This document shows positions 5,295-57,146 of a stretch of 64,000 bases of DNA, piece by piece. The notes beneath the pieces were generated by a model, which was given only the letters and a program-made list of their open reading frames with translations, did not search any database and was not told where the DNA came from. Location of the stretch: the NCBI GenBank assembly GCA_016188215.1, contig JACPIF010000001.1, forward strand, positions 69,923 to 133,922, in the 5' to 3' direction. The first letter of the stretch is position 1. Each line of letters begins with the position of its first letter. The translations under genes were made by a program, and so were the position numbers. This DNA comes from Candidatus Woesearchaeota archaeon. Its GTDB lineage: Archaea > Nanobdellota > Nanobdellia > Woesearchaeales > JACPIF01.

Positions 5295-7811
5295 ATGGCA
5301 GAAGCAGCAAAACAGGAAAACACAGGAAAACAAAGTTTTCCTAGTGCCAGAAATGTGCGCATTTCTGAGCACGCAGAGCAGATACTTCCCCGCGAGATTG
5401 AGGATGAGATGCGGCAGAGCTATCTGGACTATGCGATGTCAGTTATAGTCGGAAGGGCGCTGCCTGATGCGCGGGATGGCCTGAAACCAGTGCATAGGAG
5501 AATTCTATACGGGATGTATGATTTAGGAATGTTCCACAACAAGCCATTTAAGAAGTCCGCAAGGATAGTTGGAGAAATCCTCGGTAAATACCATCCACAT
5601 GGCGATACTGCTGTCTATGATGCGCTTGTCAGGATGGCGCAGGATTTCTCTTTGCGCTATCCGTTGATTGACGGGCAGGGAAATTTTGGATCAGTTGACG
5701 GGGATAGTCCTGCTGCAATGAGGTATACAGAATGCAGGTTAACAAAGGCTGCAGAAGAGCTGCTGCAGGATATTGACAAGGAAACAGTTGCTTTCTCACC
5801 TAATTTTGACGGCAGCCTGGAAGAGCCTGTGGTGCTACCTGCGAAATTGCCTAACCTGCTCATTAACGGAAGTTCCGGCATTGCCGTAGGCATGGCAACC
5901 AATGTTCCGCCACATAATGTAGCTGAAATCTGCGAAGGTGTAATTGCATTGATTGACAAGCCTGAGCTGAATGTGCAGGAGCTCATGCAACTTGTAAAAG
6001 GCCCTGATTTCCCGACTGGAGCTACCATAGCAGGCAGGAATGGGATACAGGCAGCCTACACACATGGCCGCGGGAAAATCATTGTGAAGTCAAGGGTGAA
6101 GACTGAGAAGGTAAAGAACCGTGAGCAGCTTATTGTTGAAGAAATACCGTATATGGTAAACAAGGCACAACTCATTGAGCAGATAGCTGATCTTGTGAAC
6201 CATAAGGTGATTGCGGGCATAACTGACATACGCGATGAAAGCGACCGGGACGGAATGCGAATCGTGCTTGAGCTAAAGACAGGCGCGCATGCAGATGTCG
6301 TGCTAAACCAATTGTACAAGCATACCCGTATGGAAGAATCATTCGGCATAATCATGCTCGCGTTAGTTGACGGGCAGCCTAAGATCCTTGGGTTAAAGGC
6401 CCTGCTGCATGAATTTGTAAAGCACAGGCAAACTGTTGTAAGGAAACGCACTTCCTTTGACCTGGACAAGGCTGAAAAGCGCGCGCATCTGCTGGAAGGG
6501 CTGCTTATTGCGCTGAAGAATATTGACGAGGTCATAAAGCTCATCAAGAAAAGCAAAGCGGTTGAGGATGCGCGGAATACGCTTATAACAAGGTTCATGC
6601 TGAGCGTGGAGCAGTCAACCGCTATACTTGAGATGCGGCTGCAGCGCCTCACTTCGCTGGAGCAGGAGAAGATTCTTGAAGAGCACCGTGCGCTGCTGAA
6701 GACCATCGCAGAGCTGAAGGCTGTACTTGCATCTGAGCAGAAAATACTTGGAATCATCAAGCGGGAGATGAAGGAGGCCAAGGAAATCTATGGCGATAGC
6801 CGCAAGACAGTGATCAGCGGAGAAGAGATAGAGCTTGAGATGGAAGACCTGATAGCAAACGAGGAGAATGTCATAACAATAAGCAATGACGGCTATATCA
6901 AAAGGCTGCAGGTTGATGTCTATAAGAAGCAGAGGCGCGGCGGGAGAGGCGTGATTGCTGCAACCACAAAAGAAGAAGATACAATCAGGTATCTGCTGAC
7001 AACGAACACGCATAACTATCTGCTGTTCTTTACCAATACCGGAAGGGTGTACTGGCTCAAGGCATGGCAGGTACCTGAGGCTGGCAGGCAGGCGAAAGGC
7101 ACTGCCATTGTTAATTTGCTGCAGATGGGGAAGGATGAGAGAATAGCGACACTGCTTGCAATCAAGGATTTCAACAAGGGTTTCCTTGTTTTTGCAACCA
7201 AGAAAGGCGTTATCAAGAAGGCTGCGGTTGAGCTTTTTGCGAACCCGCGCAAGACTGGGATAGCGGCAATCAGCCTGGATGCTGATGATGCGCTAGTAAA
7301 TGTTGAATTGACTGATGGCAGCCAACAGCTGGTCATTGCGACGGCGCAGGGCCAAGCTATCAAATTCCAGGAGCAGGATGTAAGGTCCATGGGAAGGAGT
7401 GCAGCCGGAGTCATCGGAATTAAATTGAGGAAGAATGACTATGTGATAGGCATGGAGCCCGCGGATGACAGCAAGACGCTGCTGACAATAACTGAGCATG
7501 GATATGGAAAAAGGTCTGAAATATCAGACTACAGATTAATCAGCAGAGGCGGCTCAGGGGTCATCAATATCATCTGCTCAGAGCGGAACGGGAAGGTTGT
7601 GGAGATAAAAGCTGCTGATGATAACGATGAGATACTGCTGATCAGCAGGAAAGGCATTGCAATAAGAATCATGGCAAAAGACATCTCTGTCATCGGAAGA
7701 AACACGCAGGGCGTAAGGCTGATGAAACTTGAAGAAGGGGATACCCTTGTTGCGGCTACCAAGATTTTGAAGGAGCAGAACGGCTTATCTGTTCCTTTAA
7801 ATTTATCGTAA
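5295..7811 (+). CDS. gyrA: DNA gyrase subunit A
   Basis: The cleavage and DNA-wrapping subunit of type IIA topoisomerase; with GyrB it adds negative supercoils. The 838 residues contain the winged-helix region ([18 protein letters not shown]), the active Tyr in [10 protein letters not shown] at about residue 144, and a C-terminal beta-pinwheel with the gyrase-specific GyrA box QRRGGRG near 546-552, which separates it from topoisomerase IV. GyrA in archaea is of bacterial origin (family knowledge). gyrB is not adjacent in this window. The frame is open back to a GTG at 5253; I prefer the ATG at 5295 (MAEAAKQ). The end overlaps the convergent next gene by 9 bases. Confidence 0.95.
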
Positions 7812-10790: not shown

Positions 10791-11163
10791 GTAGGGTATG
10801 TACTTAGCTGACGGTGCGATAGGATTCTGGGTTACACCCCTTAACCTTGAAGCGCTGAGGAAAGTCCGCCCACCATGAGGATCATTTGGGTTCTGAAAAG
10901 GGCCTGAGTGCTCTGGAAAATTGTTGCCGGGCTAGTAATCCGGATCCAGCGATGGATGGCAACCGCTCAGAAACGGTACTGCCTGCAAGATGCTATGAGG
11001 TTGTGACGGTTTTGGCAACAAAACTCAGATAACCAGCCGAGTTTGCTTGCAGGATAAGTTGAAACGGCGAGCCCCTTCAGGTGCAAGTCATTGACGCTCA
11101 GTAGAATGCTAAGATTGTTCAAGGCAACTTGAGCTAACAGAAGGCGGCTTATTCATACCCTAC
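10791..11163 (+). ncRNA. rnpB: RNase P RNA
   Basis: Catalytic RNA that removes 5' leaders of pre-tRNAs. The signature CR-I GAGGAAAGTCCGCC is at 10857-10870 and the partner CR-V ACAGAAGGCGG at 11137-11147, followed by the usual GCTTA. The ends form a perfect 10-bp P1 helix, GTAGGGTATG (10791-10800) with CATACCCTAC (11154-11163), which sets the boundaries. The length of about 373 is within the archaeal type A range. A T-run directly follows. No tRNA-like or coding alternative explains the conserved elements. Confidence 0.95.
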
Positions 11164-14308: not shown

Positions 14309-14340
14309 TCTTTCAATCTCTATTTCTTTGTCTGAAACTA

Positions 14341-14439
14341 TAGGAAATAACTTTAATTTTCGTATACATTTATTATTTCCTAATAAGCAAATCACAACGA
14401 AAAGATACGAATATTAGTGTGATTTGCTATAATTATTAG
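14341..14439. repeat. AT-rich hairpin block
   Basis: TAGGAAATAA (14341-14350) pairs with TTATTTCCTA (14373-14382), and AGCAAATCACA (14386-14396) pairs with TGTGATTTGCT (14418-14428), itself framed by CTAATAA and TTATTAG. This is the first part of the 375-base gene-free gap between the membrane protein and tRNA-His. Confidence 0.6.
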
Positions 14440-14445
14440 GACAGT

Positions 14446-14577
14446 AGTCGGCGAGCTTCAGCTCGCCTCCGTGGTGCGAGGGCCAGAGGAACTGAAGTTC
14501 CTTGGTCAAGAAATGCATGGCATTTCTTTGGAGTCCCCGAAATACCAGCATAATCCGTGGTTTCGGGGACATATATT
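14446..14577 (-). repeat. Multi-hairpin intergenic element, copy 1 (inverse orientation)
   Basis: Contains, in plus-strand order, GGCGAG-loop-CTCGCC (14450-14467), hairpins AGGAACT/AGTTCCT and AAGAAATG/CATTTCTT, and GTCCCCGAAA (14533-14542) with TTTCGGGGAC (14561-14570), then ATAT. Shares the CAATATGTCCCCGA..TCGGGGAC core and the AGTAGTCGGCGAG..CTCGCCTCCGTGG module with the copy at 18105, and the core with those at 27338 and 57029. No coding potential seen. Confidence 0.72.
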
Positions 14578-14684: not shown

Positions 14685-14762
14685 GAAGGTAGTAGTATAA
14701 CCTGGCTAGTATGGGGGACTGTGGATCCCTTGGTCCGGGTTCAAATCCCGGCTACCTTCCCA
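14685..14762 (+). tRNA. tRNA-His (GTG)
   Basis: Complete cloverleaf. G-1 at 14685 faces C73; acceptor AAGGTAG (14686-14692) pairs with CTACCTT (14752-14758); anticodon loop CTGTGGA with GTG at 14721-14723; T loop GGTTCAAAT type. The extra 5' G opposite C73 is the His identity element. CCA is encoded at 14760-14762, unlike the other two tRNAs here. Confidence 0.93.
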
Positions 14763-16151: not shown

Positions 16152-16754
16152 ATGGGAGATACAAAAAAACAGCGGAAGAAGTATAGGGGGCCAAGCCATC
16201 CGTGGCAGAAGCTGAGGATAGAAGAGGAGCAGCATGTCCTGAAAGCGTATGGGCTGAAGAACAAGACTGAGATATGGCGCATGGCTTCACAGCTCAAGAA
16301 TTTTGCGCACCAGGCGAAAAAGCTTAATCCATTAGCGACGAAGGAAGCTGAAAAGGAGCGGCAGCAATTATTGCAGAAGCTTATCAAACTGGGATTATTG
16401 CAGCACACGGCAAAGCTTGATGATGTGCTGAGCCTGAGCCTGAAAGATATCCTTGAAAGAAGGCTGCAGACACAGGTTGTCAGGCGAGGGCTTGCAAAAT
16501 CAATGCGGGAAGCGCGGCAGCTTATCACACACAAGCATATCATGGTAAAGGGGCAGAAAATAACAGCACCATCATACTTAGTAGCGATCCAGGAACAGGA
16601 GGCGCTCGCATTTGCGGGCAATTCGCCGTTCAGCAATCCTGAGCGTAGGAAATCTTCAGGATTTCCTAGCCCTGAAACTGAAGCTTCAGAGCACTCAAAA
16701 CGTGCTGCCCAGCCAAAACCTGAAATCAAGCGGGTTGAGGCGGCAGCTGAATAA
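16152..16754 (+). CDS. rps4: 30S ribosomal protein S4 (uS4) with palindrome-derived C-terminal tail
   Basis: Primary 16S rRNA binder. 200 residues: an archaeal N-terminus ([17 protein letters not shown]), core helices, and the S4 RNA-binding fold ([26 protein letters not shown]) at about 110-150. Archaeal S4 usually ends soon after that domain; here a Ser/Pro/Glu-rich tail (residue 162 on) is encoded by three back-to-back palindromes at 16646-16706 and more. The start is the ATG at 16152 (MGDTKKQ); an upstream open frame overlaps rps13 and is ignored. Two bases separate it from rps11. Confidence 0.94.
16646..16706 (+). repeat. Three tandem palindromes inside the rps4 coding region
   Basis: TAGGAAATC-TTCAG-GATTTCCTA (16646-16668), CTGAAGCTTCAG (16678-16689) and AGCAC-TCAAAAC-GTGCT (16690-16706), all in frame. 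The first matches the intergenic palindromes at 40553 and 54883. Confidence 0.65.
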
Positions 16755-18240: not shown

Positions 18241-18606
18241 ATGGCAATAAGAACAGGACCGACAAACCCAATCATGCAGAGCCTAATACAGGAACTCAGG
18301 AAAACAAGCAGCGAGCAGAAGATTCCATTATGGGACAGGATAGCTGATGACCTTGAGAAGCCGACAAGGCAGCGCAGGGCAGTCAACCTATCAAAGATAA
18401 ACAGGTTTACAGAAGAGAATGAGATGATCATTGTGCCGGGAAAAGTGCTTGGCTCCGGTGCGCTCAGCCACAAGCTCACAATTGCTGCATTCAGCTTTTC
18501 AGCAGGCGCGCTTGAGAAGATAAGCAAGGTGCAGGCCAAGGCAATCTCCATCAAAGAGCTGATGCAGCAGCCCATCAAGGACAAGCGGGTGAGGATTTTA
18601 GGATGA
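18241..18606 (+). CDS. rpl18e: 50S ribosomal protein L18e (eL18)
   Basis: Archaeal/eukaryal large-subunit protein. 121 residues with TGPTNPIMQSLIQELRK at the start, NLSKINRFTEENEMIIVPGK, GSGALSHKLTIAAFSFS and the end KDKRVRILG. This is the canonical position before rpl13 and rps9. An AT-rich possible promoter lies at 18212-18225, so the second half of the operon may be expressed apart from the first. Confidence 0.95.
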   Translation: MAIRTGPTNPIMQSLIQELRKTSSEQKIPLWDRIADDLEKPTRQRRAVNLSKINRFTEENEMIIVPGKVLGSGALSHKLTIAAFSFSAGALEKISKVQAKAISIKELMQQPIKDKRVRILG

Positions 18607-18607
18607 T

Positions 18608-18651
18608 GAAAATCTTTGATTTTCAAACTTTAAATTCCTGGAGGAATTTAA
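18608..18651 (+). promoter_or_regulatory. Two hairpins, the second masking the rpl13 ribosome-binding site
   Basis: GAAAATC-TTT-GATTTTC (18608-18624) and TTAAATTCC-TGGA-GGAATTTAA (18630-18651). The Shine-Dalgarno GGAGG lies in the loop and 3' arm of the second, 9-13 bases before the rpl13 ATG at 18653. Confidence 0.5.
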
Positions 18652-18652
18652 A

Positions 18653-19063
18653 ATGATAATAGACGCAAAGCAGACGGTTTTAGGAAGGTTGGCTGCAGTA
18701 GCGGCAAAGCAGGCATTGTTGGGAAATCCTGTTGAGATAGTCAACTGCGAGCAGGCCATAATCTCAGGCAGGCGGGAGAATGTGTTTGCCAAGTACAAGA
18801 GGAAGAGAAAACTGGGCGGACCGTTCCAGGGGCCATTCATACCGAGGAATCCCGACATGTTTGTGAAGCGGGTCATAAGGGGCATGCTGCCGTACAAGCA
18901 GTACAAGGGCAGGAAGGCGTTTGAGCGCATAAGGTGTTATGCAGGCATTCCTGCAAAATTGCAAGGGCAGCAGGCGGAACAGGTCGCTGACGGCATGTCA
19001 CTGGCAATGTCACGATACGTAACAGTGCAAGAGATTTGCAGGCAACTGGGGAGCAAAAGATGA
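18653..19063 (+). CDS. rpl13: 50S ribosomal protein L13 (uL13)
   Basis: 136-residue large-subunit assembly protein. IIDAKQTVLGRLAAVAAKQAL opens the fold and NPDMFVKRVIRGMLPYK is the conserved RNA-contact loop. The stop overlaps the rps9 start as ATGA. Family length is normal. Confidence 0.95.
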   Translation: MIIDAKQTVLGRLAAVAAKQALLGNPVEIVNCEQAIISGRRENVFAKYKRKRKLGGPFQGPFIPRNPDMFVKRVIRGMLPYKQYKGRKAFERIRCYAGIPAKLQGQQAEQVADGMSLAMSRYVTVQEICRQLGSKR

Positions 19064-23919: not shown

Positions 23920-23940
23920 ACTAACGCCATTGTAATAAAG

Positions 23941-24211
23941 CGCAGGCATCCCGGGATGGATGCATACCGAAACTACAGGTTTATCTCAGCGTATTCTCGG
24001 CTCCGCTACCCTGCAAGCATCAATACAAACAGTTAGGTCTGCATCCGTCAGGATCTGAACCGGTTCCCATAAGCATCAATCCTACAGGACAGAGCGTCTA
24101 CGTTTACGCCAAGGCTTGCAGCTTGACATACACCGCTCCCAGGCATTCAGCCCAATCATGAGGCCCGTTTACTGTTACAGGGAAGGGCCAACTCCCCAGC
24201 CTAGCCTGCAT
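23941..24211 (-). ncRNA. Signal recognition particle RNA (7S)
   Basis: On the reverse strand the 5' part reads GGCTAGGCTGGGGAGTTGG, then CCCTGTAACAGTAAACGGG, matching the archaeal SRP Alu domain (CCTGTAAC motif). The S domain has the SRP54 site GTTCAG-ATCC-TGAC-GGAT-GCAG-ACC. Terminal GCAGGC/GCCTGC pair the ends. A TATA-like CTTTTTAAC (24231-24241) sets the 5' end near 24211. The apical loop reads UGAC rather than the common GGAA/GNRA. Boundaries are uncertain by a few bases. Confidence 0.9.
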
Positions 24212-27337: not shown

Positions 27338-27429
27338 GCGCGAACTGCGCGCTCAATATGTCCCCGAACAGCAAGTTTATGGAAGAATCGGGGACAATTC
27401 ACAGTCCAGCTCAACTTTAGTTGAGCTGG
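27338..27429 (+). repeat. Multi-hairpin intergenic element, copy 3
   Basis: GCGCGAACTGCGCGC (27338-27352), CAATATGTCCCCGA (27354-27367) pairing with TCGGGGAC (27388-27395), then CCAGCTCAA (27406-27414) with TTGAGCTGG (27421-27429). The same order as the copy at 57029. It fills most of the 230-base gap after trpS. Confidence 0.72.
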
Positions 27430-40552: not shown

Positions 40553-40640
40553 TAGGAAATCATAGATTTCCTAGTCTCAAAAATCTCTGATTTTTGAAAT
40601 ATTACGGTTCGCGGACCCCCGCCCAGGTTCGCGCAGCGAA
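40553..40640. repeat. Palindrome cluster downstream of tRNA-Trp
   Basis: TAGGAAATC-ATA-GATTTCCTA (40553-40573), TCAAAAATC-TCT-GATTTTTGA (40577-40597) and inverted GGTTCGCG/CGCGAAC-like arms to about 40640. The first matches palindromes in rps4 and at 54883. The 220-base gap holds no gene. Confidence 0.6.
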
Positions 40641-53780: not shown

Positions 53781-54356
53781 TTACCGCGCTATAATCCTTG
53801 CTTTTTTTCCTGTCAAATCCACGAGCTTTGAAGGCCTAGCCTTCTTTTCCCCTTCATAGATGATGAGATCAACGTGCTGCTTCACACCCCCATCAAGATT
53901 CTCAAGGCTGGTCATGAACTGCTGCGTGGTGAGGTTTGCTGACGTGGAGACAATCGGCTTTCCTAATGTTGCTGCAATCTGCGCTGACCAGTTTCCAGGA
54001 ATGCGTACGCCAAGCGTGCCGCTGCCCTGCGTCACATTTTCGGCTACACACCTGCTTTCCTGTAGGTTAAGGATCAATGTATATGGACCTGGAAGCCTGG
54101 CAAGCCATTTCCTGGCTTCTGCTGTTACCTTGCAATTCTTTGCAATCCACGATTTAGAAGGCGCAATGACAGAGAAAGGCTTTGCATCCCTTTGCTTTGC
54201 TTTTCTAATGCGAGCGACCGCATCCTTATTTGTCGCGTCACAGCCTATGCCATAAATTGTGTCAGTAGGGTATATGAAGACCAAACCCTGTTTAATCTGC
54301 TTTAGAATCCTTGACTTCTGCTTGTGGTATTCACTTGCTGATATTACTGCTGCCAT
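53781..54356 (-). CDS. Sua5/YrdC/YciO-family protein, threonylcarbamoyl-AMP synthase
   Basis: Makes threonylcarbamoyl-AMP for the t6A37 modification of tRNA. 191 residues: the YrdC fold with FIYPTDTIYGIGCDATN (nucleotide-site), KPFSVIAP, LPGPYTLIL, LGVRIPG and PIVSTSANLTT. The Sua5 C-terminal domain is absent, as in YrdC. TATA on this strand at about 54379-54387 gives a leaderless start at 54356. Confidence 0.88.
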   Translation of the reverse strand: MAAVISASEYHKQKSRILKQIKQGLVFIYPTDTIYGIGCDATNKDAVARIRKAKQRDAKPFSVIAPSKSWIAKNCKVTAEARKWLARLPGPYTLILNLQESRCVAENVTQGSGTLGVRIPGNWSAQIAATLGKPIVSTSANLTTQQFMTSLENLDGGVKQHVDLIIYEGEKKARPSKLVDLTGKKARIIAR

Positions 54357-54858: not shown

Positions 54859-54902
54859 AAGAAACCATTGGTTTCTTTTGCTAGGAAATCTTTAGATTTC
54901 CT
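54859..54902. repeat. Two short palindromes in the leader of the tiny-gene pair
   Basis: AAGAAACCATTGGTTTCTT (54859-54877) and AGGAAATC-TTTA-GATTTCCT (54883-54902); the second matches those at 16646 and 40553. Confidence 0.6.
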
Positions 54903-54933
54903 TTGTTTCAATAAGAAATAATGAGCCTGTCGC

Positions 54934-55056: not shown

Positions 55057-56136
55057 CTATGAGAAGTCTGTGAGCTTCTTGCTCTGGCCTGAATTATACT
55101 TAATGATGGAAGTGTTGCCCTCTGAACCGCCATCTGTCCGGGCCACTATGATAAAGCGGTTCTGCTCAAGCTTCTTGATTTTGCGCTGGAATGTCTTGTA
55201 GCTTGAGATGCCGCCAGAGTCCTGGTAGGACTTGAACAGCTCGCCTATTTTCTTGCCTGAATTGCTCTTCGCAATAGCAAGGATAAAGCGCTCATCCTCC
55301 CCCAGGTCAAGGCTGCTCTTGATATTGAACTCGTCAATCTTGCTGATGGCATGCTCAGCATCCTGCTCATCTATTGAGCGCGAGCTGCGGCTTTCAGCAT
55401 GCTGCGCTGCCTCTTTCATCAGATGAAGGCCGGTGCGGATGTCTTCCATGGCTACTGTCTTCTGCACTATCATGTTGAACGCTTCAGGCTTCATGGCATT
55501 CGGCACGAATGCAAAGTCGACACGCTGCCGCAGGATGCCTTCTGTCTCTTTTGCAGAGTATGGCCTGAACTCCATCATGTCCGGCATCAGCCTTGATTTG
55601 ATGCGCTGCTCCAAGGTTGCAACCCATTCCTTGTGATTAGTAATTAGAATGATGCTCTTCTTGTGTATATCCTCCAGAATGGCGTAGAGGAAATCATAGT
55701 CCTCTGCCTTGTCAATCTCGTCAAAGATGAAGACCACTGCGCGCTTGTTGAGGATTTTCCTGGCAACGTCAAACAATTCATCGGTTTTCTTGTTATGCGT
55801 CAATCGGTAGCCGAGCTTTTCACACAACTCTAGAGAGATTTTGAAGGATGTATTTTTCTGCCAGCAGTTTACGTAGATAGGGATTACTTCATCTGTCTTC
55901 TCTTCAATCTCTTCAGTCACCTTGAGGCAGGCCAGCGTCTTACCTATGCCTGGCTTGCCGTATATGAGCAGGTTTTTTCCATTCCTGTTATTGAAGAGGG
56001 GAGCAATGCAGGAAGCTATGTAGCGCTGCTGCTGCTCACGGTAGAGCACGAGCTTAGGCATGTAGCTGAAGTCCAGAGCAAACTCATTCTTGAAAATAGA
56101 TTCATCTGCCCCCAGCATATTCCCGAACATACCCAT
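55057..56136 (-). CDS. Orc1/Cdc6 replication initiator
   Basis: 359 residues. AAA+ ATPase that recognises the origin and loads MCM. Walker A IYGKPGIGKTLACLKV at about 57-73, Walker B VFIFDEIDKAEDYD at about 134-147, sensor 1 ILITNHKEW, an Arg in RIKSRLMPD, and a C-terminal winged helix (about 285-350). The lid and sensor 2 region is normal. In archaea the origin usually lies beside this gene, here best in the 700-base gap at its 3' side. An ATG at 56136 and one at 56130 are alternatives. Confidence 0.9.
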   Translation of the reverse strand: MGMFGNMLGADESIFKNEFALDFSYMPKLVLYREQQQRYIASCIAPLFNNRNGKNLLIYGKPGIGKTLACLKVTEEIEEKTDEVIPIYVNCWQKNTSFKISLELCEKLGYRLTHNKKTDELFDVARKILNKRAVVFIFDEIDKAEDYDFLYAILEDIHKKSIILITNHKEWVATLEQRIKSRLMPDMMEFRPYSAKETEGILRQRVDFAFVPNAMKPEAFNMIVQKTVAMEDIRTGLHLMKEAAQHAESRSSRSIDEQDAEHAISKIDEFNIKSSLDLGEDERFILAIAKSNSGKKIGELFKSYQDSGGISSYKTFQRKIKKLEQNRFIIVARTDGGSEGNTSIIKYNSGQSKKLTDFS

Positions 56137-57028: not shown

Positions 57029-57146
57029 CCGCGCTGCGCGCGGAAGCGCTCGCTCTGCTCGCGCACTATGCCAAAAGTCCCCGAGTAATTGCTGGCAGCT
57101 CGCGGTTCGGGGACTAATACAGTCCAGCTCAGCAAGCTGAGCTGGT
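57029..57146 (+). repeat. Multi-hairpin intergenic element, copy 4
   Basis: CCGCGCTGCGCGCGG (57029-57043), GTCCCCGA (57077-57084) with TCGGGGAC (57107-57114), ACAGTCCAGCTCA and TGAGCTGG (to 57146). The same module order as the copy at 27338. It lies between the zinc-ribbon gene and serS. Confidence 0.72.

Follow-up and report, generated by a model that had tools for sequence, protein, structure and literature searches.

Rickettsia palindromic elements (RPEs) are dispersed palindromic repeats that lie between genes and also in frame within unrelated genes, where they are translated without breaking them (PMC10969869). They are about 150 bp long, encode a conserved peptide and carry a CGTC tag (PMC3733652). 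REPs of the GTAG/CGTC families are smaller, with stems of 6-9 bp, loops of 2-4 nt, a tendency to occur as dimers and alternative complementary residues in their stems; some lie within ORFs and some supply a TAG stop codon (PMC3733652). A third group, the double-hairpin or repetitive hairpin-forming elements of fungal and sponge mitochondria, consists of paired short hairpins, conserved in the stem and variable in the loop, that are intergenic and sometimes in genes (PMC2800124). In-frame palindromic elements have so far been documented mainly in Rickettsia and in some bacterial REP families, and for palindromic repeats of Woesearchaeota or other DPANN archaea we found no description in the open-access literature, which is weak evidence of novelty. 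Here, we describe a palindrome inside the rps4 gene of a Candidatus Woesearchaeota archaeon and read it, with a probability of about 0.68, as a copy of a dispersed double-hairpin repeat that lies in frame in the uS4 tail and that probably spread selfishly.

The palindrome in rps4 and the uS4 tail

The window, meaning the whole 64,000-nt stretch of DNA that was analysed, contains rps4 and, as an earlier note on this DNA had claimed, a palindrome in frame within it that is followed by two weaker ones:

16152..16754, plus strand: rps4 (uS4, 200 aa), from its translation and its NCBIfam PRK04051 and uS4_arch matches
16646..16668, plus strand: hairpin 1, TAGGAAATC-TTCAG-GATTTCCTA, a perfect 9-bp stem with a 5-nt loop, in frame (RKSSGFPS)
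16672..16689, plus strand: hairpin 2, CTGAAAC-TGAA-GCTTCAG, 7 bp with one A.C mismatch
16690..16706, plus strand: third small palindrome, AGCAC-TCAAAAC-GTGCT, a DNA fold that is not a feature of the family

Folded as single-stranded DNA, positions 16640-16710 give exactly three hairpins in succession. Hairpin 2, for which CTGAA/TTCAG is an alternative fold, begins 26 nt beyond the start of hairpin 1, and the spacing in the family described below is 22-28 nt; because 3.7% of random coding anchors are followed by such a hairpin at such a spacing, it is supportive rather than decisive. The exact rps4 hairpin was found in no viral contig, and there was no plasmid match.

The conserved domain of uS4 is covered by PRK04051 at residues 1-167 and by uS4_arch at residues 1-160 (NCBIfam), with a variable tail after it. 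Since the models stop at residues 160-167, the element, which encodes about residues 165-179 and is followed by 22 more in-frame codons, sits just past the conserved domain. The earlier note had held that the palindromes encode a tail beyond the usual end of the protein. The segment does extend beyond the conserved domain, but it is not peculiar: the tail is 35 aa here and 13-119 aa in the 29/29 same-order uS4s compared, the closest uS4 among GTDB genomes being 52% identical, and a tail unique to the source protein was accordingly rejected. In the comparison proposed as a check on insertion, every protein has a tail of variable length and only the source rps4 has the palindrome; none of the 29 tails holds a hairpin of the double-hairpin family. 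Judged from these sequences, the tail, which is presumably disordered, is an ordinary variable one, and the element sits inside it and does not create it.

Repetition and structure of the double-hairpin element

The stem of hairpin 1 is repeated across the genome. The pattern GGAAATC N2-9 GATTTCC has 10 sites and its reversed control none in the 1.1-Mb genome; with the TA end included, TAGGAAATC N2-8 GATTTCC has 7 sites, again with none for the reversed control. Nine of the 10 GGAAATC-hairpin sites are intergenic or at a gene end, and only the rps4 copy is wholly within a gene, which agrees with the earlier view of the palindrome as a member of a dispersed, mostly intergenic repeat. The recurrences claimed at 40553 and 54883 were found at 40553-40573 (9-bp stem, intergenic between convergent genes) and 54882-54903 (8 perfect bp). 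The description of the latter as a leader is unsupported because the genes on either side of it (53781-54356 and 55057-56136) are both on the minus strand. Perfect hairpins of at least 9 bp in general number 97 per 100 kb in spacers versus 3.9 in genes, approximately 25-fold more (260 kb).

The rps4 palindrome makes up one half of a longer unit of about 40-50 nt, a double-hairpin element with two AT-rich stems of 7-10 bp, loops of 3-5 nt (mostly 3-4) and hairpin starts 22-28 nt apart, in which the stem reads C-(T/G)-A-A-A-(G/A) from the loop outward. In 260 kb, about 23% of the genome, 25 intergenic double hairpins score 14 or more and five dinucleotide shuffles of the same DNA give none, at a density that is biased upward because the scanned stretches were mostly chosen for holding GGAAATC hairpins. 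The detector placed these elements in the window:

14487..14528 (C4:84409-84450), plus strand: intergenic double-hairpin element
18607..18652, plus strand: double hairpin filling a ribosomal protein gene spacer (one gene ends at 18606, the next starts at 18653)
40553..40597, plus strand: intergenic double-hairpin element between convergent genes, with the stem of rps4 hairpin 1
54859..54902, plus strand: intergenic double-hairpin element with AAGAAACC and AGGAAATC stems

Stems differ between copies (GGAAATC, AAAAATC, GAAATGC, GAAACC and others), a variation that alone is no proof of compensatory change because the detector itself requires paired stems. At C1:77170, C4:110475 and C1:119872, three dispersed copies are identical in 44/46 non-loop columns and vary in 4/6 loop columns, one loop also differing in length, which fits the expectation for copied elements; perfect stems with unstable loops are a testable signature of repeat copying. 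In the MAFFT alignment of the elements, the second hairpins are not in register. An outer stem of at least 6 bp surrounds about 29% of the elements versus 5% of random positions, and CCA is enriched at their ends (36% versus 9%). Tandem, divergent and convergent spacers are occupied alike and there is no bias to gene 3' ends; terminator hairpins were rejected as a general explanation, given that elements are also found in divergent spacers.

Further palindromes are present in the same genome. A second class of intergenic hairpins has stems richer in GC (CAGCC.../CCAGC...), and its loops are mostly TTTA or TAAA (window 27406-27429 and 57124-57145; C1:80686, C1:84440, C10:21860 and C11:30954). 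Two larger palindromes that are nested and related to each other (TAGGAAATAAC...GTTATTTCCTAATAAGCAAATC...GATTTGCTATA) lie at window 14340-14432 and at G000:C4:134814-134960 (L010), the second with a double-hairpin element inside a loop, and the spacer G000:C10:28505-28750 (L050) holds at least seven successive hairpins with outer stems such as CCACCAGTC/GACTGGTGG. Rfam also places archaeal RNase P RNA and SRP RNA genes in the window (10794-11160, plus strand, and 23940-24211, minus strand), and a tRNA-His gene lies at 14686.

Among relatives, the GGAAATC hairpin is present in 41/145 genomes (the source and others of the same order), and the control in almost none; in a sample of the phylum it is concentrated in the source's order, the rest of the class having it only rarely. 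Double hairpins resembling those of the source genome are also present in other families of the order, and at least 13 of 29 relatives' loci picked by their GGAAATC hairpin have a second hairpin at a similar spacing. Loci of relatives picked irrespective of hairpins hold few, 8 in 242 kb, of which only a part belongs to the double-hairpin type, so the occurrence of the elements is patchy and the source genome has unusually many of them.

Direct repeats of 8-30 bp often surround the GGAAATC hairpin in other families (L069, L070, L073, L078 and L059), separated from it on one side by a gap that is always 4 nt; the arrangement is mirrored in L062 and L064. In several cases the flanking repeat copies the end of a tRNA (in L069 the 3' end of tRNA-Arg), and the arrangement has the look of an insertion with target duplication at tRNA genes.

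Copies in protein genes and how they may have arisen

Besides rps4, the window holds another in-frame copy:

5324..5367, plus strand: in-frame double-hairpin element of gyrA, at about residues 10-25 of the N-terminal extension (score 16 versus 0 in shuffles)

The GyrA model begins at residue 30, and relatives have a different variable sequence in this extension. In a nucleotidyltransferase gene on another contig, the element covers about residues 17-31, downstream of GGAGG and ATG, with the domain starting at residue 48. Outside the window, the end of an A24 prepilin peptidase gene, stop codon included, falls within a double-hairpin element. These copies, together with that in rps4, bear out the likeness to RPEs that was first suggested for rps4. 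All in-frame or gene-end copies are outside the Pfam/NCBIfam conserved domain, and the segments that they encode differ, with no common peptide. The N-terminal cases hinge on the choice of start codon; the rps4 copy does not. A copy at the N terminus of pyrI was set aside, given that a TTG start after GGAGG sits downstream of the element, and it is probably intergenic. In another family (L065), a lone GGAAATC hairpin sits in frame in the gene for RNA polymerase A', where it falls in the low-complexity N-terminal tail. As a separate observation on gyrase, GyrA matches in G005, G006, G042, G052 and G057 are split within one long open frame, which suggests that several related genomes have inteins in gyrase A.

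The uninterrupted frame and the compact operon suggest that the rps4 element is transcribed and translated with its gene, and it may be tolerated because the stretch that it adds is hydrophilic and lies outside the folded domain. The element is probably a selfish palindromic repeat that spreads; a trans-acting mobiliser would presumably copy it via an intermediate of hairpin DNA, and copies that landed in frame at protein ends would be the ones to survive selection. Target-site duplication around the copies in the source genome is not above chance. A PF01797 search for a Y1 transposase found none in the source genome, which is 91% complete, and was positive in 5/14 control genomes. Two same-genus comparisons in other families gave no usable orthologous site in a search for empty sites. 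The nearest genomes compared with the source genome are from the same order, and insertion is accordingly one candidate origin among others. It is more speculative, and we would put it at rather worse than even odds, that DPANN archaea harbour an undescribed class of mobile double-hairpin DNA that is RAYT-free and is spread by an unknown hairpin-processing mechanism, one that leaves stems perfect while loops are scrambled. If so, uS4, GyrA and other essential proteins would repeatedly have gained translated segments at their ends from the element.

Intergenic elements could instead have been overrun by neighbouring genes, through loss of a stop codon or use of an upstream start, with no insertion into a gene. 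The location of all coding copies at protein ends, the prepilin peptidase stop codon within an element and the pyrI copy, best read as intergenic, are in line with such capture, which is possible for the terminal cases. However, a tail is present at the site in all the uS4s compared, so the rps4 site had probably been coding before, and the frame continues for 22 codons past the element; we regard capture by read-through as unlikely.

Somewhat less probable again is a functional RNA or DNA signal that is selected everywhere, such as a terminator, a processing site or a protein-binding site, for example in autogenous control by uS4. Stems that stay paired while loops vary would suit a signal, as would the strongly structured message for the rps4 tail (16620-16754, folding z = -5.05, better than all shuffles). 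Against this, divergent and convergent spacers and coding ends are all occupied with no positional rule, Rfam has no match at the rps4 site and no other uS4 gene compared has the element.

That the palindrome arose by chance in a low-complexity tail is very improbable: although shuffled sequence gives approximately 2 stems of at least 9 bp per 64 kb and a hairpin like hairpin 2 is not rare by itself, the rps4 stem equals the repeated genome stem letter for letter, against 0 reversed controls in 1.1 Mb, and is followed by a second hairpin at the family spacing.

Comparison with known palindromic elements

A copy of a dispersed double-hairpin repeat, our preferred reading of the rps4 palindrome, has parallels in each of the described systems. 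Like the mitochondrial double-hairpin elements, the archaeal element has tandem hairpins with a short spacer and variable loops, a likeness of architecture only, given that the sequences are too short for homology. Unlike those elements, which are organellar and have other stem sequences, it belongs to an archaeal chromosome and has AT-rich stems with a shared GAAA core.

With REPs it shares short stem-loops that are dispersed, mostly extragenic and often paired, as well as copies within ORFs and a stop codon supplied by the repeat. It differs in its host, a DPANN archaeon, in having no bias to gene 3' ends, and in that no Y1/RAYT transposase was found and the GTAG/CGTC tag is absent: GTAG is at 0/56 element ends and CGTC at 1/56, which is background level.

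Like RPEs, the archaeal element is dispersed, intergenic and also in frame in unrelated protein genes. Whereas RPEs are about 100-150 bp long with a conserved peptide, it measures about 40-50 nt, its stems vary and it encodes no common peptide. It thus departs from RPEs in size, the tags are missing and no transposase was found, but it works like an RPE or a REP. As the archaeal equivalent of such elements in reduced DPANN genomes, present in core machinery including uS4 and GyrA, it would show short repeats feeding protein tails outside bacteria.
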